Source: Streptomyces sp. NBC_00461 (GTDB lineage: Bacteria; Actinomycetota; Actinomycetes; Streptomycetales; Streptomycetaceae). Taken from it: a stretch of 64,000 nucleotides of DNA. This document shows positions 42,970-57,033 of the stretch, in pieces (positions within the stretch are counted from its first letter, which is position 1; every line of letters begins with the position of its first letter). The stretch is taken from the NCBI RefSeq assembly GCF_036013935.1, contig NZ_CP107902.1, positions 3,009,001 to 3,073,000 on the forward strand, given 5' to 3'. Below the pieces are notes generated by a model. The model saw only the letters and a program-made list of their open reading frames with translations, did no database searches and was not told the origin of the DNA. Made by a program: the position numbers and the translations under genes.

Positions 42970-43974
42970 TCAGTACTTGCGGTTCGGGAGCTCGGCCTTC
43001 GCCTGGTCCTGCGTGAAGTCGCCCTCCTTGGTCTTGATCCAGCGCTCGACCTTCTGGCCGTCGTGGACCTTCTTCACGACCTCCATCAGCTGGGGGCCGA
43101 GCAGCGGGTTGCACTCGACGATGCCGTTGATCTTGCCCTGGGACATGGCGACGAAGCCGTCGTGGACGCCGTCGACCGAGACGATCAGGATGTCCTTGCC
43201 GGGCTTCTTGCCGGCTGCCTCGATCGACTGGATGGCGCCGATGGCCATGTCGTCGTTGTGCGCGAAGAGCACGTTGATGTCCTTGTGGGACTGCAGCAGG
43301 GCCGCCATGACCTGCTTGCCGCCGGCGCGGGTGAAGTCGCCGCTCTGGCTGGCGACGATCTTCCAGTCGTCCTTGTGCTCGGCCGCCATGACCTCCTTGA
43401 AGCCCTTGCCGCGCTCGATCGCGGGGGCGGCTCCGGTGGTGCCCTCCAGCTGGGCGATCTTCACCGGGCCCTTGAGGCCGGCCTTGGCTATGACCTTCTC
43501 CAGCATCCGGGCCGCGCGCCGGCCCTCGTCGGTGAAGTCGGAGCCGACGAGCGTGACGTACAGCGAGTCGTCGGAGGTCTCCACCGAGCGGTCGGTGAGG
43601 ACCACCGGGATCTTCGCGGCCTTGGCCTCCTTGAGCACCGCGTCCCAGCCGGTGACGACCACCGGCGAGAAGGCGATGACGTCCACCTTCTGCGCGATGT
43701 AGTTGCGGATCGCGGAGATCTGGTTCTCCTGCTTCTGCTGGGCGTCGGAGAACTTGAGGGTGTAACCCGCCTCCTTGGCCGCGGACTTCACGGAGGTGGT
43801 GTTGGCGGCGCGCCAGCCGCTCTCCGCGCCGACCTGGGAGAAGCCGAGCGTGATCGCCTTGCTGCCGCCCCCGGAGCCGGAGGAGCCGCTGTCGTCCTTC
43901 TTGGCACAGGCGGCCAGTCCACCCGCGGCTGCCACGCCGACCGCCGCGGTGAGGAAGTTCCTTCTGTTGAGCAT
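42970..43974 (-). CDS. Furanose-binding lipoprotein (YtfQ-like)
   Basis: The 334-residue precursor starts at ATG 43974, six bases behind AAAGGAG. The signal has both a twin-arginine motif (NRRNFLT) and a lipobox LAAC with Cys23, so it may be a Tat-exported lipoprotein. The mature part closely follows galactofuranose-binding YtfQ: GFSQVGAESGWRAANTTSVK, then DAQQKQENQISAIRNYIAQK, VVVTGWDAVLKEAKAAKIPV, SQSGDFTRAGGKQVM and FAHNDDMAIGAIQ. Galactofuranose or arabinofuranose is the expected ligand. A motif shared with three other units lies 85 bases upstream. Confidence 0.9.
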   Translation of the reverse strand: MLNRRNFLTAAVGVAAAGGLAACAKKDDSGSSGSGGGSKAITLGFSQVGAESGWRAANTTSVKSAAKEAGYTLKFSDAQQKQENQISAIRNYIAQKVDVIAFSPVVVTGWDAVLKEAKAAKIPVVLTDRSVETSDDSLYVTLVGSDFTDEGRRAARMLEKVIAKAGLKGPVKIAQLEGTTGAAPAIERGKGFKEVMAAEHKDDWKIVASQSGDFTRAGGKQVMAALLQSHKDINVLFAHNDDMAIGAIQSIEAAGKKPGKDILIVSVDGVHDGFVAMSQGKINGIVECNPLLGPQLMEVVKKVHDGQKVERWIKTKEGDFTQDQAKAELPNRKY

Positions 43975-44058
43975 GTTCTTCTCCTTTGAAGAGCCGGCCC
44001 GGGGATGGACCGCTGGTACTTCTGGGACCGGCCGCACTACGTCCAGCCTGTCGATCAT

Positions 44059-44073
44059 TGTTCGGTATTTCGG
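44059..44073 (-). promoter_or_regulatory. Shared sugar-island motif, copy a
   Basis: On the minus strand the bases read CCGAAATACCGAACA, before the YtfQ-like operon, in the 133-base gap after the LacI gene. It matches copies b (48773) and c (46490) at 12 or more of 15 positions. It contains two CCGAA units eight bases apart. Confidence 0.7.
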
Positions 44074-44107
44074 CCACACGGAACCACATGTGTGGCTGGT
44101 CGGTTCG

Positions 44108-45154
44108 TCAGAGAGGTACGCCCTCCGGTTGGACGGCGTACGGGAAAGTACTGGCTCGGACGACGAGTTGGGGTTCGATGGCGATCCTGCGCGCGGTGGC
44201 GTGCGGCCGGCCCTCGATCAGCTCCAGGAGCATCGCGATGCCGCGCCTTCCCACCGTCGAGAAGTCCTGCCGGACGGTGGTGAGGGGAGGAGCGAAGAAC
44301 TCCGACTCCGGGATGTCGTCGAAGCCCACCACCGCCACGTCCTGGGGAGTGCGCACCCCGGCCTCCCGCAGCGCCCGCAACGCCCCCAGCGCCATCTGGT
44401 CGTTGGCGACGAAGACGGCGGTCAGCCCCCGGCCCACCCAGCCGGCCAGTTCCTGGCCGGCGCGGTAACCCGACAGCGGACTCCAGTCCCCGCGCAGCAT
44501 CATGGGTGGCTCGACCCCCGCCGCTTCGAGGGTCGCCCGCCAGCCGGCCGCCCGGTCGGCCGCCTCCTGCCAGTCCTCGGGCCCGGCGAGGTGCCAGACG
44601 TTACGGTGACCCGCGGCAAGCAGGTGGCCGGTGGCCAGCCGGGCTCCGAGGTGCTGGTCCACGCTGACGCTGGGAATCTCCACGCCCGGCCCGCTGCCCA
44701 CCACCACCACCGGGAAGGGGCAGCGCAGTTCGGTCAGCGCGCCCACCGCGGACCGCTGCGGGGCGATCGCGACCACTCCCTCCACCCCGCCCTCACTGAG
44801 GTGGTCCAGGGCCTCGGACAGCGTCTCCTTGGTCAGTTTGCGCAGAGTGACCGTCGAGACGAGATACCCCTCGGCCCGCGCCGCCTCCTCCAGCGCGAAC
44901 AAGGTACTGGCCGGTCCGTAGAGGGTGGTGTCGGAGGCCACCACCCCCAATGTCCGGGTGCGCCGGGTCACCAGGGCCCGTGCGGAGGAGTTGCGGCGGT
45001 AGCCCGTCTCCTCGATCACACGCAGCACCCTGGCCCGTGTCTCGTCCCGCACATTGGGGTGGTCACCCAGCACGCGGGACACGGTCTGGTGGGACACGCC
45101 CGCCAGGCGTGCCACGTCGGCCATGGTGGGCGGCCGAAGCTGCTCGTGGGTCAC
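44108..45154 (-). CDS. LacI-family regulator of the sugar island
   Basis: The GTG at 45154 lies seven bases behind AAGGAGG; the 348-residue product starts THEQLRPPTMADVARLAGVS. The helix-turn-helix and hinge are VARLAGVSHQTVSRVLGDHP, then NVRDETRARV and NSSARALVTRRT. The effector domain has FDDIPESEFFAPPLTTVRQD, typical for sugar-responsive members. The gene lies directly upstream of the YtfQ-like operon on the same strand. A LacI-type operator (45347-45362) lies 193 bases before its start. Confidence 0.93.
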   Translation of the reverse strand: MTHEQLRPPTMADVARLAGVSHQTVSRVLGDHPNVRDETRARVLRVIEETGYRRNSSARALVTRRTRTLGVVASDTTLYGPASTLFALEEAARAEGYLVSTVTLRKLTKETLSEALDHLSEGGVEGVVAIAPQRSAVGALTELRCPFPVVVVGSGPGVEIPSVSVDQHLGARLATGHLLAAGHRNVWHLAGPEDWQEAADRAAGWRATLEAAGVEPPMMLRGDWSPLSGYRAGQELAGWVGRGLTAVFVANDQMALGALRALREAGVRTPQDVAVVGFDDIPESEFFAPPLTTVRQDFSTVGRRGIAMLLELIEGRPHATARRIAIEPQLVVRASTFPYAVQPEGVPL

Positions 45155-45497
45155 GGCCGCACCTCCTTGGCGCTCGTCTGCCGGCAAGGCCTGCGTTGTG
45201 GGCGGAGGGCCCCGCCCCGGCGGCTTCGCACAGGTCTCCGGGAAGGCCCAACAGCACTGGCGGGAATGGGGAGTCGGGACACTGCGGGCACGACGCTCGT
45301 ATCTCCCACGCTGACGCTGGACGCTGACCGGTGAATGCGAAGGTCATTGTGAGCGCTAACAAATCACGCCGGTCAAGAGGGCTGCAGGCGTAAGGCCGTC
45401 ACGGTTGAATAACGCGGCCGGAAGGACTTGGCCGAGCGGTTCGCTCAGCAGTACCTCAACCACGGTCACACCAGCGGAAGTTGGCGTCCGGTCAGCG
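45155..45497. other. 343-base region upstream of the LacI gene
   Basis: No gene is convincing here. It contains the LacI-type operator at 45347-45362. Open frames crossing it on either strand lack starts with ribosome sites and have the wrong codon bias. It is bounded by the stop of the SCO2400-like gene on the same strand. Confidence 0.55.
45347..45362. promoter_or_regulatory. LacI-family operator
   Basis: TTGTGAGCGCTAACAA has arms TTGT/ACAA and a central AGCGCT, the usual CG-centred dyad bound by LacI-type repressors, with a single mismatched pair. It is upstream of the lacI-like gene and probably mediates autoregulation. Confidence 0.75.
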
Positions 45498-46265
45498 CTA
45501 CGAGCACCACCACAGGAATCGCTTGCACGTTTCCGACGGCTGCGGGGACGGGTCGGAGGTCGTCGGGTCGGAGGTCGGGGTCGAGCCCGAGGCGGGCGGG
45601 GGCGTCGAGTCGGCGGAGCCGGGGGGAGCCGCTGATCGGGTTGCCTTGCCGGTCGGGGTCGCGTCGTCCTCGCCGTCGGCGGACTTGGACGCCGACGGCG
45701 AGGCGGAGGCGGGCGGGGACGTCGAGGACTTGCTGTCGGGGATCCCCGTCCCGTCGCCCAAGGGCCGTGCGGACTCGCTCGGCTCCGCCGTCGAGCGGTC
45801 GACCTCGGACTCGCCCCCGGCCGCGGACGGGTCGTGGGACGAGAACCCCGGCGCGTCCACACCGAGTTCGGCCAGGCTCAGACCACCCGCCGCCAGGACG
45901 AAACCCGCGGCGACGAGCAGCGTGCGCTTGCGGCGTCGGCGATGGAGCGCGGCCTTGCGGTCGCGACGGCTCGCATCCGTCGCGCCGCCCGCGGTGGCGG
46001 GACTCCGTCGACCGCCCCGGCCCTGCTCGCGACGGCGCGCGGCGCGACCGTGCGGCTCGTCGCCCTCGTCCTCACGACCGTCGCCGTCGTCGGCATGCCC
46101 ATCGGGAGCCACGGGGACATCATGATCGGCGAGAGCAACGGTTTCGTCGTACGGCTCCGGCTCGTAGGCATCCCGGTACGCACGTAGCTGCTCGACGTGT
46201 GTCCCGCACCCCGGACAGGCGAGGGCGCCGTTGAGGTGCCGTTGGCACGGGTGGCAGTAGTCCAT
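45498..46265 (-). CDS. Zinc-ribbon, single-TM protein (SCO2400-like)
   Basis: The 255-residue protein starts YCHPCQRHLNGALACPGCG, a four-cysteine zinc ribbon (residues 4-20). An acidic then arginine-rich stretch is followed by one membrane helix (RTLLVAAGFVLAAGGLSLAE, about residues 113-132), and then a long Ser/Thr/Pro-rich region that would be outside the cell, ending CKRFLWWCS. The layout, with the zinc ribbon inside and the tail outside, and the ending match a Streptomyces family I know as SCO2400-like. The function is unknown. No strong ribosome site is present; TAACCT lies nine bases before the ATG. Confidence 0.75.
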   Translation of the reverse strand: MDYCHPCQRHLNGALACPGCGTHVEQLRAYRDAYEPEPYDETVALADHDVPVAPDGHADDGDGREDEGDEPHGRAARRREQGRGGRRSPATAGGATDASRRDRKAALHRRRRKRTLLVAAGFVLAAGGLSLAELGVDAPGFSSHDPSAAGGESEVDRSTAEPSESARPLGDGTGIPDSKSSTSPPASASPSASKSADGEDDATPTGKATRSAAPPGSADSTPPPASGSTPTSDPTTSDPSPQPSETCKRFLWWCS

Positions 46266-46436
46266 GACGCGGGAAGGTTAAGTTCCCTCACGGTCACGTT
46301 CCTAGCCACGGCCGTGAAGGTTGTGTGACGGACCGGCCATATCGGCACGACCGACGGAGTGAGATGGCACACATCACGGAGTGGCGACTTTCGCAAGAGG
46401 CGTGGAACCTGCCGAAACCGTTACCCGTTACACCCA

Positions 46437-46466
46437 TTGACACCCCCCTCACGCGGTACTTACTGT
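46437..46466 (+). promoter_or_regulatory. Promoter of the dehydratase/dehydrogenase operon
   Basis: TTGACA (46437-46442) and TACTGT (46461-46466) are 18 bases apart. The expected transcription start, about 46473, is directly before the cluster of NCGAA units at 46478-46510, so a protein bound there would block elongation. Confidence 0.7.
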
Positions 46467-46489
46467 CTGCCCAGCATTTCGAACGTGTG

Positions 46490-46504
46490 ACGAAATCTCG
46501 AACA
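46490..46504 (+). promoter_or_regulatory. Shared sugar-island motif, copy c
   Basis: ACGAAATCTCGAACA lies 17 bases before the enolase-superfamily start. NCGAA units occur at 46479, 46490, 46498 and 46506 (spacing 11, 8, 8). The 11-8 spacing is repeated at copy b. Confidence 0.72.
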
Positions 46505-46521
46505 GCCGAAGGGTAACTTCC

Positions 46522-47685
46522 GTGCGCATCACCGGAATCAGCACGCATGTGGTCGGTACGCCGTGGCGCAACCTGACCTACGTCCTGGTGCACACCGACG
46601 AAGGCATCACGGGTGTCGGCGAGACCCGCATGCTGGGCCACACCGACGCGCTGGTCGGATACCTGAGGGAGGCCGAGCAGAACCACATTCTCGGGTCCGA
46701 CCCGTTCGCCGTCGAGGACCTGACCCGCCGCATGAAGTACGGCGACTACGGCCGCGCCGGCGAGATCGTGATGTCCGGCATCGCCGTCGTGGAGATGGCC
46801 TGTTGGGACATCAAGGGTAAGGCCCTCGGTGTGCCCGTGTGGCAGCTGCTCGGCGGCAAGGTCACCGACAAGGTCAAGGCCTACGCCAACGGGTGGTACA
46901 CGACCGAGCGGACGCCCGAGGCGTACCACAAGGCCGCTCAGGGCGTCATGGAACGCGGCTACAAGGCGCTGAAGATCGACCCCTTCGGCACGGGGCACTT
47001 CGAGCTCGACCATGAGCAGACCCTGTACGCGGTCTCCCTGATCGAGGCCGTCCGGGACGCCATCGGCCCCGACACCGAGCTGATGCTGGAGATGCACGGC
47101 CGCTTCTCCCCCGCCACCGCCGTCCGGCTGGCCAAGGAGCTCGCACCCTTCAAGCCCGCCTGGCTGGAGGAGCCGGTTCCGCCGGAGAACCTGAAGGCGC
47201 TGGAGAAGGTCGCCGCGAAGGTGGACATGCCGCTGGCCACGGGTGAGCGCATCCACGACCGGATCGAGTTCCGGGAGCTCTTCGAGAGCCAGGCCGTCGA
47301 CATCATCCAGCCGGACGTCGGCCACATCGGCGGCATCTGGGAGACGCGCAAGCTCGCCGCGACCGCCGAGACCCACTACATGCTGGTCGCCCCGCACAAC
47401 GTGGGTGGGCCCGTGCTCACTGCCGCCTCGCTCCAGGTCGGCTTCACCGCCCCGAACTTCAAGATCCTTGAGCACTTCAACGACTTCGCGGACGCCGAGA
47501 TCAAGAAGGTGGTCAAGGGCGCGCCGCAGGTGAACCCGGAGGACGGCTGCTTCCACATCTCCGACGCGCCCGGCCTGGGCGTGGAGCTGGACGTGGACGC
47601 CGCTGCCGAGTTCCCCCAGCAGCGGGCGCACTTCGACCTGTGGGCCGAGGGCTGGGAGAAGCGGAACCCGAAGGACGCCCAGTGA
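46522..47685 (+). CDS. Enolase-superfamily sugar-acid dehydratase (mandelate racemase/DgoD type)
   Basis: The 387-residue enzyme starts with GTG at 46522 behind GAAGGG. The features are the KxK base motif KALKIDPFGTG, metal ligands in LMLEMHGRF, WLEEPVPPENL and LATGERIHD, then QPDVGHIGGIWETRK and the His in APHNVGGPV. These place it in the mandelate racemase / galactonate dehydratase branch. The neighbours suggest dehydration of a sugar acid made from imported galactose or arabinose; the exact acid is unknown. The gene's TGA overlaps the GTG of the next gene (GTGA). Confidence 0.85.
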   Translation: MRITGISTHVVGTPWRNLTYVLVHTDEGITGVGETRMLGHTDALVGYLREAEQNHILGSDPFAVEDLTRRMKYGDYGRAGEIVMSGIAVVEMACWDIKGKALGVPVWQLLGGKVTDKVKAYANGWYTTERTPEAYHKAAQGVMERGYKALKIDPFGTGHFELDHEQTLYAVSLIEAVRDAIGPDTELMLEMHGRFSPATAVRLAKELAPFKPAWLEEPVPPENLKALEKVAAKVDMPLATGERIHDRIEFRELFESQAVDIIQPDVGHIGGIWETRKLAATAETHYMLVAPHNVGGPVLTAASLQVGFTAPNFKILEHFNDFADAEIKKVVKGAPQVNPEDGCFHISDAPGLGVELDVDAAAEFPQQRAHFDLWAEGWEKRNPKDAQ

Positions 47686-48689
47686 GCTCCGCGGCCGTCG
47701 TCGTCGACGCCCCGGGCGCCTTCCACCTGGCCGAGCACACACCTCGGGACCCCGGTCCGGGCGAGGCTCTGGTGCGGGTGCACGCGAGCGGGATCTGCGG
47801 CAGCGACCGGGAGGTGTTCCAGGGCAACCGGCCCGAGGGATACGTGCGCTACCCGCTCACGCCCGGCCACGAGTGGTCCGGAACGGTGGAGCGGGTCGGC
47901 GCCGGGGTCACCGAGTCGCTGGTCGGCCGCAAGGTGGTCGGCGAAGGCTTCCGGAACTGCCAGGTGTGCGACCGCTGCCACGCGGGTGAGACCACACTGT
48001 GCAGCGCCGGGTACGAGGAGACCGGGTTCACCCAGCCGGGCGCGATGGCGCCCACGCTGACCCTCCCGGCGAGGTTGCTGCACGTGCTGTCCGACGACGC
48101 CGACCTGACGGCGGCGGCCCTGCTGGAGCCGGCCGCCTGCATCGCGGCCGCTGCTCTCAAGGCGAACGCGCAGCCGGGCGAGAAGGTCGCCGTGGTCGGC
48201 ACCGGCACCCTCGGAATGTTCGCGGTGCAGTTCCTCAAGGCCGTCTCGCCGGTGGAGCTGCTGGTCGTCGGCACCCGCCGGGACCGCGAGGCGCTGTCGC
48301 GGCAGTACGGCGCGACCGACTTCCGTACGAAGGACGAGCCGCTCCCGGACGACTTCGACGTCGTCATCGAGACCGCCGGGTCCGCCGACGCCGCGCGGAC
48401 CTCCGCCGCCCTGCTGCGGCGTGGCGGGCGCCTGGTCCTCACCGGGATCCCGGCGCCCGGCGCGAACGGGCTCGACCCCACGGATCTCGTCGTACGGCAG
48501 CTGGAGGTGCACTCGGTCTTCGGAGCGCCGCCGGACGCGTGGGCTCACACCGTGCGGGTGTTCGGGGCCGGGTTGCTCGACCCGCTGCCGCTGGTCACAC
48601 ACGAGCTGCCGCTCGCGGAGTTCCCGCAGGCCATCGAGCTCGTCGGCTCCGGCGATCCGAAGGTCGGCAAGGTCCTCCTTCGCCCCTAG
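47682..48689 (+). CDS. Zinc-dependent sugar/alcohol dehydrogenase
   Basis: The 335-residue MDR dehydrogenase starts at the GTG at 47682, overlapping the dehydratase stop by four bases, so the two are co-translated. Catalytic zinc ligands: Cys in ASGICGSDREVF and His-Glu in LTPGHEWSG. The structural zinc site CQVCDRCHAGETTLC is complete. The nucleotide-binding segment is KVAVVGTGTLGMFAVQFLKA. It probably oxidises the sugar or alcohol that the dehydratase branch uses. Substrate unknown. Confidence 0.9.
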   Translation: MSSAAVVVDAPGAFHLAEHTPRDPGPGEALVRVHASGICGSDREVFQGNRPEGYVRYPLTPGHEWSGTVERVGAGVTESLVGRKVVGEGFRNCQVCDRCHAGETTLCSAGYEETGFTQPGAMAPTLTLPARLLHVLSDDADLTAAALLEPAACIAAAALKANAQPGEKVAVVGTGTLGMFAVQFLKAVSPVELLVVGTRRDREALSRQYGATDFRTKDEPLPDDFDVVIETAGSADAARTSAALLRRGGRLVLTGIPAPGANGLDPTDLVVRQLEVHSVFGAPPDAWAHTVRVFGAGLLDPLPLVTHELPLAEFPQAIELVGSGDPKVGKVLLRP

Positions 48690-48772
48690 CCGTACGCCGG
48701 TACGGGGACGACATGACGGCCTCCGTACCGGCGTACACCCAAGTCCCGCACGACTTGAGCCGCGAACTTCGT

Positions 48773-48787
48773 CCGAAATATCGAACA
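48773..48787 (+). promoter_or_regulatory. Shared sugar-island motif, copy b
   Basis: CCGAAATATCGAACA lies 13 bases before the start of the TIM-barrel-like gene. NCGAA units at 48762, 48773 and 48781 repeat the 11-8 spacing of copy c. A TTGAGC at 48755 could be a -35 element. Confidence 0.72.
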
Positions 48788-48800
48788 CTAAGGACTCCTT

Positions 48801-49769
48801 GTGACCGACGCTTCCGCCCCGGCAGCCCGTCGACCCGGCGAACAGGCGCTCGCCGCCCTGGGTCTGGGCGCGCCCGACCTCTCCCCCGCCGACGCCTCAC
48901 CCCACACCTTCCCGGGTGGCGGCCGCTGGCGCACCGAGATCCCCTCGTGCGAGGGCCCCGAAGCGCTGGCCGTCGTCCTGAAGGAGGCCTCGCGGCTCGA
49001 TGTGCCGATCCACCGGATCAGCCAGGGCAGCGGCGTGTGGATGCTGACCGACGCCGAGATCACCGAGATGGTCGAGGCGACCGGCGAACGTGACATCGAA
49101 CTCTGCCTGTTCACCGGCCCACGCGGCACCTGGGACATCGGCGCTTCCACGCGCACCGACTCACGGGGGGCCGGTCTGCGCGCCCGCGGGCACGACGCCG
49201 TCGCCGGGTGCGTCGAGGACGCCGTCCGCGCGACGGAGTTGGGCGTCCAGTGCCTCCTCGTCGCCGACGAGGGCGTGCTGTGGACGCTGCACCGCGCACG
49301 CGCCGCCGGGATCATCCCGGCCGACACCACCCTGAAGGTCTCGGCGCTGATCGGTCCGGTCAACCCGGCCGCGTACGCGGTGTACGAGCAGTTGGGCGGC
49401 GACTCCATCAACGTGCCCAGCGATCTGACGCTGGACCACCTCACCGAGATCCGCCGGGTCTCCGCCGCCCCCATGGACATGTACATCGAGGCCCCCGACG
49501 ACCTGGGCGGATATGTCCGGATGTACGAGGTCGCCGAGCTGATCCGGCGCGGCGCACCGCTGTACCTGAAGTTCGGGCTCTCCAAGGCTCCCGGCATCTA
49601 CCCCTACGGGCACCACATGCGGGACCTGACGCTGTCCACCGCCCGCGAGAGAGTGCGGCGCGGCCGGCTGGCCCTCGATCTGCTCGCGCGGCACGGAGCC
49701 GACGGCGACATGGCCCCCCTCGGTTCACGGCTGCCGGGGACTCTCAAGAGATTCAACAAGTCCGCATAA
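48801..49769 (+). CDS. Unrecognised TIM-barrel-like protein of the sugar island
   Basis: The 322-residue protein starts with GTG at 48801, six bases behind AAGGA. I do not recognise it with confidence. Alternating hydrophobic strands and helices (RDIELCLFTGPRGTWD, GVQCLLVADEGVLW, TLKVSALIGPVNPAA, SINVPSDLTLD, MDMYIEAPDDLGG, APLYLKFGLSK) read like a beta/alpha barrel, and the sequence loosely recalls U32-type peptidases, but no cysteine ligand cluster of that family is seen. It lies between the dehydrogenase and the ChvE-like operon and has the shared operator, so it probably acts in the same catabolic route. Confidence 0.6.
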   Translation: MTDASAPAARRPGEQALAALGLGAPDLSPADASPHTFPGGGRWRTEIPSCEGPEALAVVLKEASRLDVPIHRISQGSGVWMLTDAEITEMVEATGERDIELCLFTGPRGTWDIGASTRTDSRGAGLRARGHDAVAGCVEDAVRATELGVQCLLVADEGVLWTLHRARAAGIIPADTTLKVSALIGPVNPAAYAVYEQLGGDSINVPSDLTLDHLTEIRRVSAAPMDMYIEAPDDLGGYVRMYEVAELIRRGAPLYLKFGLSKAPGIYPYGHHMRDLTLSTARERVRRGRLALDLLARHGADGDMAPLGSRLPGTLKRFNKSA

Positions 49770-49779
49770 CGTTCGAACA
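49765..49779 (+). promoter_or_regulatory. Shared sugar-island motif, degenerate copy d
   Basis: CATAACGTTCGAACA keeps the TCGAACA half and a few other positions of copies a-c, and lies 128 bases before the ChvE-like start. GTTCGAAC in it is a perfect eight-base palindrome. Confidence 0.45.
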
Positions 49780-49907
49780 ACGCCCCTTCACAAAAGAAGA
49801 CGGGCGCAAACAGAATCCCTCACATCTCTCGGTCCCGTCCGCACCGCCCCAAAAGCGTCCTTGCACAGTCAGACCGAGCCTGCCCACACACATCAAGGAT
49901 GATGATC

Positions 49908-51014
49908 ATGCGCACTCGCAGAGCCGCACTCGCCTCCATCGCCGGAGCCGCCTGCCTCGCCCTCACCCTGTCCGCCTGCGGACAGAGCGGTGAAGGCGGC
50001 AGCAAGCAGGACAAGGGCAGCGCCAAGGGCGGCACCATCGGTATCGCGATGCCCACCAAGTCCTCCGAGCGCTGGATCGCCGACGGCAAGAACGTCGTCA
50101 AGGACCTGCAGGCCAAGGGCTACAAGACCAAGCTGGTCTACGGCGAGGACGACCCCGACCAGCAGGTCTCGCAGATCGAGAACCTGATCACGCAGGGCGT
50201 CAAGGGCCTGATCGTCGCGGCCATCGACAACAAGTCGCTGAACAACGTGCTGCAGCAGGCCGCGGACGCCAAGATCCCGGTGATCGCCTACGACCGTCTG
50301 ATCCTCGGCACGAAGAACGTCGACTACTACGCGTCCTTCGACAACGAGAAGGTCGGTCAGCTGCAGGCCAACTACATCGTCCAGAAGCTGGGCCTGGACA
50401 AGGGCAAGGGCCCGTTCAACATCGAGCTGTTCGCCGGCTCCAACGACGACAACAACACCAAGTACTTCTTCAACGGCGCGATGAGCGTGCTGCAGCCGTA
50501 CATCGACAAGAAGAAGCTCGTCGTCAAGTCCGGCCAGACCAAGCTCACCCAGGTCACCACCCTGCGCTGGGACGGCGCCACCGCGCAGAAGCGCATGGAG
50601 GACATCCTCACCTCCACGTACAGCAGCGCCAAGGTGGACGCGGTCCTGTCCCCCTACGACGGCATCTCCATCGGCATCCTCGCCGCCCTGAAGTCGGACG
50701 GTTACGGCTCCGGCAGCAAGGCCATCCCGGTCATCACCGGCCAGGACGCCGAGCTCGCCTCGGTGAAGTCGATCATCGCGGGCCAGCAGACGCAGACCGT
50801 CTACAAGGACACCCGCAAGCTCGCCGATGTCGCCGCGGGCATGGTCGACGACGTCCTCAAGGGCAAGAAGCCTCAGGTCAACGACACCAAGACATACGAC
50901 AACGGCACCAAGGTCGTCCCCGCCTACCTGCTGCAGCCGGTGAGCGTCGACAAGACGAACTACACCAAGGAACTGGTCGACACGGGCTACTACACGGCCG
51001 GCGAGCTGAAGTAG
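49908..51014 (+). CDS. Sugar-binding lipoprotein (ChvE/XylF-like)
   Basis: The 368-residue precursor starts at the ATG at 49908, eight bases behind AAGGA; two earlier ATGs overlap the ribosome site. A lipobox LSAC puts the lipid on Cys24. The mature protein has the ChvE/XylF pattern: [50 protein letters not shown] and [20 protein letters not shown]. ChvE binds galactose, arabinose, xylose and glucose. It is the first gene of SBP-ATPase-permease-epimerase, with short gaps. Confidence 0.92.
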
Positions 51015-51066
51015 TCCCTCAGCCGGTGAACACGGCGACCATTCCTACGGATTGAAAGGGCACACC

Positions 51067-52617
51067 ATGGCGGGACCCGTCCTGGATATGCGCTCGATCG
51101 TCAAGACCTTTCCCGGGGTCAAAGCGCTGTCGGACGTCACGCTGACCGTCCGTCAGGGCGAGGTCCATGCCATCTGCGGTGAGAACGGCGCCGGGAAGTC
51201 CACCTTGATGAAGGTGCTCTCCGGCGTCCATCCGCACGGCACGTACGAGGGCGACATCCTCTTCGAGGGTGAGACCTGCGAGTTCAAGGACATCCGGGCG
51301 AGCGAGCAGCACGGCATCGTGATCATCCATCAGGAGCTGGCGCTGGTGCCGTTCCTGTCGATCGCGGAGAACATCTTCCTCGGCAACGAACACGCCTCGG
51401 GCGGGTTCATCAACTGGAACGAGACGCTGAAGCACGCCACCGAGCTGCTGCGCCGGGTCGGTCTGAGCGACCACCCGGAGACCCGGATCGCCGACATCGG
51501 CGTGGGCAAGCAGCAGCTGGTGGAGATCGCCAAGGCGCTGTCCAAGAAGGTGAAGCTGCTCATCCTCGACGAGCCGACGGCGGCTCTGAACGACGAGGAC
51601 AGCGGCAAACTCCTGGATCTCATCCTGGAGTTGAAGAAGCAGGGCATCACCTCGATCATCATCTCCCACAAGCTGAACGAGATCCGGCGGGTCGCCGACT
51701 CGGTGACGATCATCCGCGACGGCAAGTCCATCGAGACCCTCGATGTGAAGTCGGCGGAGACCACCGAGGACCGGATCATCTCGGGCATGGTCGGCCGCGA
51801 CCTCGACCACCGCTTCCCCGAACGCACGGCGTACGAGGGCGAGTCGGACGCGGCACCCGCGCTGGAGATCCGCAACTGGACGGTGCACCACCCGATCGAC
51901 CAGCAGCGCAAGGTGGTCGACGACGTGTCGATCAACGTGCGGCGCGGGGAGATCGTCGGCATCGCGGGCCTGATGGGCGCGGGCCGCACGGAGTTGGCCA
52001 TGAGCGTCTTCGGGCGCAGCTACGGTCGGCACGCGGGCGGCACGGTCCTCAAGGACGGCACGGAGATCCGTACGAAGACCGTCGCGGAGGCGGTCGAGCA
52101 CGGCATCGCGTACGTCACCGAGGACCGCAAGCACTACGGCCTCAACCTCATCGACAACATCAACCGGAACATCTCGCTGACCGCGCTGAACAAGGTGGCC
52201 AAGCGCGGTGTGGTCGACGAGCACGAGGAGCGCAAGGTCTCGGAGCGCTTCCGCAAGTCCATGAACATCAAGGCGCCGACAGTCTTCGAGACGGTGGGCC
52301 GGCTGTCCGGCGGCAACCAGCAGAAGGTCGTCCTCAGCAAGTGGATCTTCGCGGGTCCCGAGGTGCTGATCCTGGACGAGCCGACGCGCGGTATCGACGT
52401 GGGCGCCAAGTACGAGATCTACACGGTCATCGACCAGCTGGCCGCCGAGGGCAAGGCGGTCGTCTTCATCTCCTCCGAGCTGCCGGAGCTGCTCGGTATG
52501 TGCGACCGCATCTACACCATGGCCGCCGGGCGGCTCACGGGTGAGGTCCCGAGGGCCGAGGCCACGCAGGAAGTGCTGATGCGCCAGATGACGAAGGACA
52601 AAGAGGTAACCCGATGA
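51067..52617 (+). CDS. Sugar ABC transporter ATPase (GguA/XylG-like)
   Basis: The 516-residue double ATPase starts at the ATG at 51067 behind GAAAGG; a TTG five codons upstream lies over the ribosome site. It has Walker [28 protein letters not shown] (degenerate signature) and [16 protein letters not shown] in the first half, and [17 protein letters not shown] and [15 protein letters not shown] in the second. Its stop overlaps the permease start by four bases. Confidence 0.95.
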
Positions 52618-53861
52618 GCACGGATGTGACGGACAAGGTCCCGGCCTCGGCTCCGCCCGGCAAGAGCGGAGGCACGGCCGCCGACAGCAACCTGCTGCAG
52701 CTCATACTCGGCGGCCTGCGCCGCAACATGCGGCAGTACGGCATGCTGATCGCGCTCGGCCTGATCGTGGTCCTGTTCCAGGTGTGGACCGGCGGGGACC
52801 TGCTGCTGCCACGAAACGTCTCCAACCTGGTGCTGCAGAACAGCTACATCCTGATCCTCGCGATCGGCATGATGCTGGTGATCATCGCGGGTCACATCGA
52901 CCTGTCGGTCGGATCGCTGACGGCGTTCGTGGGCGCGTTCGCGGCCGTGCTGACGGTGCAGCACGGTGTGGCGTGGCCGATCGCCCTCGTACTGTCCCTG
53001 CTGGTGGGCGCGGTCGCGGGCTCGGTGCAGGGCTTCCTGATCGCGTATCTCGGCATACCGTCCTTCATCGTGACTCTCGCGGGCATGCTGCTCTTCCGCG
53101 GTCTGACGGAGATCTTCCTGCAGGGCCAGACCCTCGGCCCGTTCCCGAACGGTTTGCAGAAGCTCGGCAACGGCTTCCTGCCCGAGGTCGGCCCGAACAC
53201 CAACTACCACAACCTCACGCTGCTGCTGGGCTTCGTCCTGCTGGCCTTCGTGATCTACCAGGAGGTCCGCGACCGCAAGCGCGAGCAGGAGTTCTCGCTG
53301 GACGTGCTGCCGCGCAACGCCTTCCTGCTGAAGCTGGTCGCGATCGCCGCCGCGGTCCTCGCGGTCACGATGCTGCTCGCCAGCTATCAGGGCGCCCCGA
53401 TCATCCTGATCGTCCTCGGTGTGCTGGTGGTCGGCTACGGCTACGTCATGCGCAACGCGGTCTTCGGCCGTCACATCTACGCGATCGGCGGCAACCTGCC
53501 GGCGGCGAAGCTGTCCGGCGTCAAGGACAAGAAGGTCACCTTCCTTGTCTTCCTGAACATGGGCGTGCTCGCGGCCCTGGCGGGTCTGGTGGTCGCCGCC
53601 CGTCTGAACGCGGCCTCTCCGAAGGCGGGCCTCAACTTCGAACTCGAGGCGATCGCCTCGTCGTTCATCGGTGGCGCGTCCATGAGCGGCGGTGTGGGTA
53701 CCGTCCTCGGCGCGATCATCGGTGGTCTCGTGCTCGGCGTGCTGAACAACGGCATGAACCTCCTCAGCGTCGGCACGGACTGGCAGCAGGTCATCAAGGG
53801 CCTCGCCCTGCTGGCCGCCGTCGGCTTCGACGTCTGGAACAAGCGCAAGTCCGGTTCGTAG
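52614..53861 (+). CDS. Sugar ABC transporter permease (GguB/XylH-like)
   Basis: The 415-residue membrane protein has about ten TM segments and the RbsC-family motif [19 protein letters not shown], the EAA-type loop [17 protein letters not shown], and [18 protein letters not shown]. The long inserted stretch with [14 protein letters not shown] and a charged loop [10 protein letters not shown] is typical of XylH/GguB, not of RbsC. It shares ATGA with the ATPase, so translation is coupled. Confidence 0.94.
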
Positions 53862-55194: not shown

Positions 55195-57033
55195 ATGGCC
55201 GACAACGTCACCTCGCTGTTCCGCAGCAATGCGGCACACAGCCCGTCGATGGCGGCGTTGACACGTGATGGCGGCGACGGGACCGGCCCCGTGGACTTCT
55301 GTATTCCCTGCAACCCCTACTTCCCGACCCCGGCGATGTTCGACACCATGTCGGCCCGGCTTCGCGACATCGTCACGTACTACCCGAGCAGCGCCGACAC
55401 GATCACGGCCGAGCTGTGCAGCCTGCTCCAGCTCCCGCCGCAGTGCGTGGCGATGGGCAACGGCTCGACCGAGCTGATCACCTGGATCGACCATCTGATG
55501 GTCCGTGAGTCCCTCGCCATCCCCGTCCCCACCTTCGGCCGCTGGACCGACCAGCCCATGGAGACCGGCAAGCGGGTCGACATGTTCCCGCTGCAGGAGT
55601 CCAACGGCTTCTCCCTGGACCTCGCCCAGTACGCCGAGTTCATCCGGGCCCGCGGCACCCGCGTCGCCGTCGTCTGCAACCCGAACAATCCCGACGGCGG
55701 CTATCTGCAGAAGCAGACGCTGGTGCAGTTCATGGACGCGATGGCCGACCTCGACCTGATCGTCGTCGACGAGTCCTTCCTGGAGTTCGCGGACGCCGAG
55801 GCCGAACCGTCCGTCGTGCAGGAGGCGATGATCCGCCCGAACGTGATCGTGCTGCGCAGCCTCGGCAAGAACTTCGGCCTGCACGGCATACGTTTCGGCT
55901 ATCTGGTCGCCAACCCGGCGCTCGCGGGCCGGGTCCGCTCCATGCTCCCCAAGTGGAACCTCAACTCCTTCGCCGAGTACGTGGTGTTCATGCTCAAGGA
56001 GCACGGCGCCGAGTATGCGCAGAGCCTCCACCAGGTGCGCCGCGACCGCCTGGACATGGCCAGCCAGCTCTCCGCGCTGCCCGGTCTGACCGTCTATCCC
56101 TCCCAGGGCAACTTCCTCTTCGTGCGCCTCCCGGTGGGCGCCGAAGGCACCGTCGTCCGCGACCGGATGCTCACCGAGCACCGCATCCTGGTCCGCGAGT
56201 GCGGCAACAAGATCGGCTCGTCCAGCCGCTTCCTGAGGCTCGTGGTGCGCCCCCAGGTGGATGTGCGTCGCCTGGTGTCCGGCCTGGAACAGGTGCTCTA
56301 CGGGACCAGGAGGGGAGCCGCCGTACCGGAGCTGAGCACAGGGACCAGCTACAGCTCGGGTACGGCGGCCGTGGACCGGCTGGTCGGCGCCACCAACGGG
56401 GCGGGCATGCCGCTCGCCGCGCAGGCGGGGCAGTTCATGGGCGCCGGGGTGCCGATGCCGGCTGTGGCGCAGGCGGCACCGCAGCCGGTCGCCGCACAGA
56501 TGCCGATGTATGCGGCGATGCAGGCGGTACCCGAGCCCATGCAGAGGCAGATGCCTGCCGCGATGCAGGCCGTACCCGAGCCCATGCAAAGGCAGATGCC
56601 TGCCGCGATGCAGGCCGTACCCGAGCCCATGCAAAGGCAGATGCCTGCCGCGATGCAGGCCGTACCCGAGCCCATGCAAAGGCAGATGCCTGCCGCGATG
56701 CAGGCCGTACCCGAGCCCATGCAAAGGCAGATGCCTGCCGCGATGCAGGCCGTACCCGAGCCCATGCAAAGGCAGATGCCGGTCCAGCCGATGCAGCCGG
56801 TTCCGGAGCCGGTGCCCGCGCAGATGCAGCCGGTACCCCCACAGATGCAGCCGGCCGCCGCGCAGATGCCGACGCCGCCCGTGCCCGGGCCTACGCCGCC
56901 GGGCGTCCCGGCCCGCGGGGGCCTCACGGCCGCGCAGGTGCGGGGTATGACCGGCCCCGCGCAGGGACTTACTCCGGCGCCGGCCACCGGGTGGCCCAAC
57001 GCCCAGAGCTGGCCCAGCGCGGCGGGAGCCTGA
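55195..57033 (+). CDS. Class I/II aminotransferase with Met/Gln/Pro-repeat tail
   Basis: The 612-residue protein starts at ATG 55195 behind CGGAGG. Residues 1-370 or so are a histidinol-phosphate-aminotransferase-like domain: FCIPCNPYFPTPAMFD, AMGNGSTELITW, VAVVCNPNNPDGGYL, LIVVDESFLEFAD and the PLP lysine in LRSLGKNFGLHGIRFGYL; SSRFLRLVVRP has the substrate arginine. After a short linker, a tail of about 170 residues is built from MQAVPEPMQRQMPAA repeats (six copies), then further Met/Gln/Pro-rich sequence. The DNA of the repeats is nearly identical. The natural substrate is unknown, and the tail is not needed for the fold. Confidence 0.88.
   Translation: MADNVTSLFRSNAAHSPSMAALTRDGGDGTGPVDFCIPCNPYFPTPAMFDTMSARLRDIVTYYPSSADTITAELCSLLQLPPQCVAMGNGSTELITWIDHLMVRESLAIPVPTFGRWTDQPMETGKRVDMFPLQESNGFSLDLAQYAEFIRARGTRVAVVCNPNNPDGGYLQKQTLVQFMDAMADLDLIVVDESFLEFADAEAEPSVVQEAMIRPNVIVLRSLGKNFGLHGIRFGYLVANPALAGRVRSMLPKWNLNSFAEYVVFMLKEHGAEYAQSLHQVRRDRLDMASQLSALPGLTVYPSQGNFLFVRLPVGAEGTVVRDRMLTEHRILVRECGNKIGSSSRFLRLVVRPQVDVRRLVSGLEQVLYGTRRGAAVPELSTGTSYSSGTAAVDRLVGATNGAGMPLAAQAGQFMGAGVPMPAVAQAAPQPVAAQMPMYAAMQAVPEPMQRQMPAAMQAVPEPMQRQMPAAMQAVPEPMQRQMPAAMQAVPEPMQRQMPAAMQAVPEPMQRQMPAAMQAVPEPMQRQMPVQPMQPVPEPVPAQMQPVPPQMQPAAAQMPTPPVPGPTPPGVPARGGLTAAQVRGMTGPAQGLTPAPATGWPNAQSWPSAAGA
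56518..56787 (+). repeat. 45-base minisatellite in the aminotransferase gene
   Basis: Six tandem 45-base units begin at 56518, 56563, 56608, 56653, 56698 and 56743. Units 2-5 are identical; unit 1 differs at two silent positions; unit 6 diverges only in its last six bases. The reading frame is kept because 45 is a multiple of three. The identity suggests recent expansion by slippage or unequal recombination. Confidence 0.95.

Follow-up and report, generated by a model that had tools for sequence, protein, structure and literature searches.

A 64,000-nucleotide stretch of Streptomyces sp. NBC_00461 (contig NZ_CP107902.1, positions 3,009,001 to 3,073,000; hereafter the window) holds a sugar island in which a 15-base motif, (A/C)CGAAAT(A/C)(T/C)CGAACA, precedes three transcription units: those of a ytfQ-like sugar-binding protein, of a sugar-acid dehydratase with a dehydrogenase, and of a TIM-barrel-like protein. 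Comparison among Streptomyces genomes showed that this motif is conserved and that its occurrence is linked to an iclR gene just beyond the window. We propose, with a probability of roughly 0.85, that the motif is an IclR-family operator bound by the product of that gene (genome positions 3076664-3077413), which would repress an arabinose-type regulon. The sequence comparisons show the operator to be real, conserved and of a known kind, and they support its new candidate regulator well.

Motif copies and their conservation ahead of orthologous genes

The motif is present at 44059-44073 (minus strand), 46490-46504 and 48773-48787, with 12 of the 15 positions identical. A preliminary description of the window had reported these three copies, and both the window scan and a genome count of the core CGAAATNNCGAACA, which comprises the 12 fixed positions, bore this out. 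The operators and the signals around them are as follows.

44059-44075, minus strand: operator a, ahead of the ytfQ-like operon; GGCCG-N6-CGAAC plus A, from the window scan
46477-46504, plus strand: operator b; CGAAC (46480-46484), CGAAAT (46491-46496) and CGAAC (46499-46503)
48763-48787, plus strand: operator c, ahead of the TIM-barrel gene; CGAAC (48763-48767) and GTCCG-N6-CGAAC (48771-48786)
46437-46466, plus strand: dehydratase-operon promoter TTGACA-N18-TACTGT; TTGACA-N16-19-TACTGT in 77 of 80 orthologous upstreams
45349-45361, plus strand: LacI-type sequence GTGAGCGCTAACA, distinct from the motif

Only four exact copies of CGAAATNNCGAACA exist in the 10.37-Mb genome; three are in the window, and the fourth (2943716-2943729) lies 70 bp ahead of a GH54 arabinofuranosidase gene. 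At up to three mismatches the 15-mer matched 14 places in the window, against a shuffled mean of 3.7. A genome scan at up to one mismatch gave 43 places (25 intergenic and 18 within genes called by a simple gene caller), compared with 10, six of them intergenic, for a control in which the motif halves were exchanged so that composition and CpG were preserved. The 18 places inside called genes indicate that weak matches are partly background, as would be expected if the motif were a matter of chance or codon-bias repeats. Against that explanation, the exact motif occurred 155 times in 121 Streptomyces genomes and the swapped control 15 times, and the motif is kept ahead of fixed genes, as described below. 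The three sites stood above the background rate; for them these comparisons refute chance, and we regard the explanation by repeats as negligible. The strict palindrome GTTCGNNNNNNCGAAC (36 places genome-wide) and TTCGNNATNNCGAA (301 places at one mismatch) were discarded as definers of the regulon because their specificity was too low.

Conservation was tested by scanning at most 250 bp upstream of the genes, starting from the best 80 of at least 575 dehydratase relatives in named genomes, all titled Streptomyces. At zero, up to one and up to two mismatches, the site was found in 65, 80 and 80 of 80 dehydratase upstreams, in 17, 63 and 74 of 76 TIM-barrel upstreams and in 2, 7 and 12 of 12 ytfQ upstreams. 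Conservation ahead of orthologous operons was thus found for all three sites. The corresponding ChvE numbers were 0, 5 and 28 of 74; the 28 weak matches include one on the reverse strand at the end of the TIM-barrel gene, and this one may be a further genuine site. With two mismatches allowed, shuffled means did not exceed 2.5. Two negative controls, the upstreams of the dehydrogenase (0 of 78) and of lacI (0 of 12), gave no site at up to two mismatches.

The lacI gene (44108-45124) lies between two of the units, and its product could be imagined to bind the sites. Its own upstreams lack the motif, however, and just 12 of 80 dehydratase loci showed a close lacI homologue within the fetched flanks (70 of the 80 with at least 3 kb upstream), while the site was kept in all 80. 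The island also carries the different LacI-type sequence GTGAGCGCTAACA, as had been claimed before. We rejected the LacI-family protein as the binder; this assignment is highly improbable. That three units of the island share an operator distinct from the LacI site is well supported.

The candidate IclR-family regulator

Genome 3076664-3077413, minus strand: IclR-family gene, 3.7 kb beyond the window, with an SMP-30/gluconolactonase gene after it

The encoded protein of 250 amino acids has an N-terminal helix-turn-helix domain (PF09339, E 1.3e-12, above its cut-off) and a C-terminal effector domain (PF01614, E 1.6e-48). In its own genome a site, TGAAATTTCGAACA, was found 56 bp ahead of the gene. 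All of the 30 best-scoring iclR loci among 87 matches had an upstream site at up to two mismatches, and 24 of these showed a divergent pair 23 bp apart.

Co-occurrence was analysed in the 121 genomes, with matches accepted at E up to 1e-40 for iclR and up to 1e-150 for the dehydratase. The iclR gene was found in 84 genomes and the dehydratase in 78, every one of them with iclR. The 155 exact motifs were distributed over 79 genomes: 151 motifs fell in 75 of the 84 genomes with iclR, compared with four, in four genomes, for the 37 without it, which matches the rate of the swapped control. The Fisher value of 3.8e-17 for this co-occurrence is, owing to the kinship of the genomes, not a true probability. 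Twenty further iclR upstreams were chosen, mostly distant copies and including eight of the nine iclR genomes that have no exact motif (all but G081), and a site was found in 16. In at least 13 genomes (G002, G004, G006, G015, G019, G021, G028, G030, G041, G085, G093, G114 and G119), the iclR and dehydratase genes are divergent and 182-447 bp apart, and all 13 gaps hold the site at up to one mismatch.

Seven distant iclR homologues (51-56% identity) had a TIM-barrel gene nearby in six cases, a GH51 gene in four and a dehydratase gene in three. The seventh adjoins an IlvD/EDD dehydratase, a member of the usual L-arabinonate dehydratase family. In one distant actinobacterium, iclR and the TIM-barrel gene are directly followed by a gene (L349:8204-9478) whose product has a D-arabinono-1,4-lactone oxidase domain.

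The form of the sites also points to the IclR family. The TIM-barrel operator reads GTCCG-N6-CGAAC in 73 of 74 upstreams, and a GTYCR-type left box matching at least three of five positions at N6 was present in 74 of 74 TIM-barrel and 12 of 12 ytfQ upstreams, but in only 9 of 80 dehydratase and 0 of 25 iclR upstreams, the last having GTTGA at N5. In operators b and c, a CGAAC box lies 19 bp ahead of the last CGAAC, with CGAAAT in between (box starts 46480/46491/46499 and 48763/48774/48782). The dehydratase upstreams all (80 of 80) have such a CGAAC-like box, as do 73 of 74 TIM-barrel and 25 of 25 iclR upstreams, and it accounts for the 11-8 spacing correctly noted earlier in two copies. The motif would then be the stronger half of an IclR group-1 operator (GTTCG-N6-CGAAC), mostly accompanied by another CGAAC box at a distance of 19 bp. 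For group 1, Suvorova and Gelfand (PMC8222616) describe the subgroup NGTYCRAW4TYGRACN and sites of three boxes; many members, though not all, have tandem sites spaced by 18-22 nt. The earlier statement that no described factor is known for this site is not supported: the site fits that described operator class, and the comparison points to a single gene of the IclR family shortly beyond the window.

The promoter TTGACA-N18-TACTGT exists as described, but it precedes the dehydratase copy, the second of the three, and not the third, to which it had been assigned. The placement there, said to suit a repressor, is well supported: operator b starts 10 bp past the -10 hexamer, and the end of operator c is 13 bp ahead of the start codon, positions for which repression is likeliest. 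The IclR protein might instead act as an activator, or as both activator and repressor, since the family includes activators (PMC8222616) and site a and some glycosidase sites are farther from the start codon. Given the positions of operators b and c, we consider this rather unlikely. Two other conserved stretches lie near these signals. A CGAAACCGTT block at 46413-46422, upstream of the dehydratase promoter, is strongly kept in the 80 orthologous upstreams, and ATGATCGACAGG at 44047-44058 (minus strand), next to operator a and kept in the 12 ytfQ upstreams, is perhaps a second binding site.

Island genes, scattered glycosidases and the sugar

42970-43974, minus strand: ytfQ-like sugar-binding protein gene (Pfam Peripla_BP_4)
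44108-45124, minus strand: LacI-family regulator gene, start codon uncertain (Pfam LacI, NCBIfam)
46522-47685, plus strand: enolase-superfamily sugar-acid dehydratase gene (Pfam MR_MLE_N, MR_MLE_C)
47682-48689, plus strand: zinc-type dehydrogenase gene (Pfam ADH_N, ADH_zinc_N)
48801-49769, plus strand: TIM-barrel-like protein gene, U32-related
49766-49781, plus strand: element formerly taken as a fourth copy, judged different and possibly a GlnR box (ATAAC-n6-ACAAC)
49899-53861, plus strand: ChvE-GguA-GguB sugar transporter genes (NCBIfam above cut-off for all three)

The top NCBIfam match of the dehydratase was galactonate dehydratase, under the cut-off of that model. Selenocysteine in the dehydratase was considered and dropped: the 18 orthologues with an apparent in-frame TGA have no stop within the aligned coding part, and in L299, the one alignment running on, the TGA comes after the last residues. 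The TIM-barrel-like protein is conserved but had no match in Pfam, NCBIfam or PDB sequences; its distant homologues match Peptidase_U32 and adjoin iclR, GH51 and dehydratase genes. The best structural matches of its model (mean pLDDT 67.7) were class II aldolases, with TM-scores of about 0.45; this is only a hint, and an aldolase function is possible. Downstream in the window, the reading frame at 55336-57033 is aminotransferase-like, and its C-terminal part holds several repeats of the short peptide MQAVPEPMQRQMPAA.

The operator had been proposed to link four units. This held for the ytfQ, dehydratase and TIM-barrel units but not for the ChvE unit, whose weaker copy at 49765-49779 has more than three mismatches, so that it falls outside the three-mismatch matches, and whose TTCGAACA was kept ahead of 1 of 75 ChvE orthologues. 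It was rejected as the same site. By comparison, CATAACGTTC was kept in 51 of 75 orthologous ChvE upstreams.

Beyond the island, 9 of the 43 one-mismatch places lie within 240 bp ahead of glycosidase or AbfB-domain genes (GH54 twice, GH27 twice, GH43 twice, a divergent GH43/GH97 pair, GH127 and an AbfB protein). The underlying Pfam scan covered genes resembling enzymes, transporters or regulators beside the 43 places and genes beside three of the 10 control places. Among 20 of the 155 exact places, sampled from the upper part of the list, seven lie within 270 bp ahead of GH62 (two), GH54 (two), GH43 (two) and GH127 genes, three are at the dehydratase and some others are inside genes. Arabinofuranosidases make up the families GH51, GH54, GH62 and GH127. 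At L032:13668-13730, a GH54 gene is preceded by the motif in three tandem copies, with 0 and 2 mismatches. Because similar sites stand ahead of several arabinofuranosidase-type genes, repression of L-arabinose and arabinan use is the likeliest function. In proteome data of Streptomyces sp. SirexAA-E (PMC12772271), SACTE_1895, 1896, 1898, 1899, 1900 and 1901, which correspond to the island by name and order, rose more than 1.5-fold on xylose versus glucose, and SACTE_1898 rose on xylan too. These data indicate joint induction.

We infer that the IclR protein probably binds the motif, most likely as a dimer or tetramer, and that it would repress the ytfQ, dehydratase-dehydrogenase and TIM-barrel units and its own gene, as well as, in trans, several secreted arabinofuranosidase-type glycosidases. 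The effector that lifts repression would probably be an oxidation product of L-arabinose or a relative, either a sugar acid or a keto-deoxy acid. More tentatively, and with somewhat less than even odds, the protein may be an undescribed regulator that acts as the chief repressor when Streptomyces use arabinan and arabinogalactan. It would join scattered secreted GH54, GH62, GH43 and GH127 arabinofuranosidases to a non-phosphorylative route for L-arabinose, with the enolase-superfamily enzyme in place of the usual IlvD/EDD dehydratase and the U32-related TIM-barrel protein as the keto-deoxy-acid aldolase. A conserved Streptomyces sugar island thus gains a candidate regulator and operator, a plant-polysaccharide-enzyme regulon scattered over the chromosome is predicted, and a sugar-acid pathway is indicated, along with an unnamed candidate for an aldolase.

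Weight of the evidence and comparison with known systems

We favour repression by the IclR protein because of the conservation ahead of fixed genes with its negative controls, the co-occurrence of iclR and motif, the sites between divergent iclR and dehydratase genes and ahead of iclR, the published motif class with its tandem spacing, the IclR domains, and the sites ahead of GH54, GH43, GH127, GH62 and GH27 genes. Several observations weigh against it. Four of the 20 sampled iclR upstreams (L248, L250, L253 and L260) had no site, nine of the 84 iclR genomes had no exact motif, although some hold sites with one or two mismatches, and a clear upstream site, GTTCGATATTTCGGAC, was found in one of the seven distant iclR homologues. 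The box 19 bp upstream occurred in 0 of 12 ytfQ upstreams (operator a), and operator b has a poorly matching left half-box, with TGACG or TGCCG in 68 of 80, which makes its exact dyad ill-defined. One of the 10 swapped-control places also lies ahead of a GH27 gene, for which reason the glycosidase link also rests on the exact sites and the other genomes. The SirexAA-E induction was by xylose, not arabinose. The genomes are related, so the co-occurrence counts are not independent, and by themselves they cannot name the binder; an unlinked regulator that merely co-travels with iclR and the dehydratase could also produce them. Such a regulator is improbable, as the site is found ahead of iclR itself and in the 13 divergent gaps, and it has the published IclR form (PMC8222616).

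The likeness to the GlnR box concerns the rejected fourth copy only. ATAAC-n6-GAAAC was found ahead of 25 of 75 ChvE orthologues, compared with 0 of 80 dehydratase, 0 of 76 TIM-barrel and 0 of 30 iclR upstreams. GlnR targets named in the consulted part of PMC10704036 include SCO2404, an ABC-transporter sugar-binding protein that is probably the ChvE counterpart, and SCO2400, to whose family the window gene at 45498-46265 belongs. The second half of the window element, ACAAC, deviates from the consensus gTnAc-n6-GaAAc, and the odds that it is a GlnR box are about even.

For the proposed regulon, no description was found in literature titles and abstract openings, with subscription papers, RegPrecise and supplements outside this scope. 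KdgR, an IclR-family regulator of sugar-acid breakdown, was the second-best NCBIfam match of the IclR protein, but its 165 bits are far under the cut-off of 275, and the KdgR motif listed in the main-text parts of PMC8222616 is of another form. PcaU and PobR of Acinetobacter, also of the IclR family, share a GTTCG/CGAAC-type palindrome with an external direct half-site (PMC8222616); they act in aromatic-acid catabolism, and their spacer is 5 instead of 6. Closest are the group-1 operators of the same source. A regulon of enolase-type dehydratase, U32-like and arabinofuranosidase genes does not appear in the consulted parts of its main text, though its supplementary tables may list one. The GTYCG-N6-CGAAC form (GTCCG in 73 of 74 TIM-barrel upstreams), the tandem boxes 19 bp apart, the sugar and sugar-acid genes and the sites ahead of the regulator's own gene are common to both.

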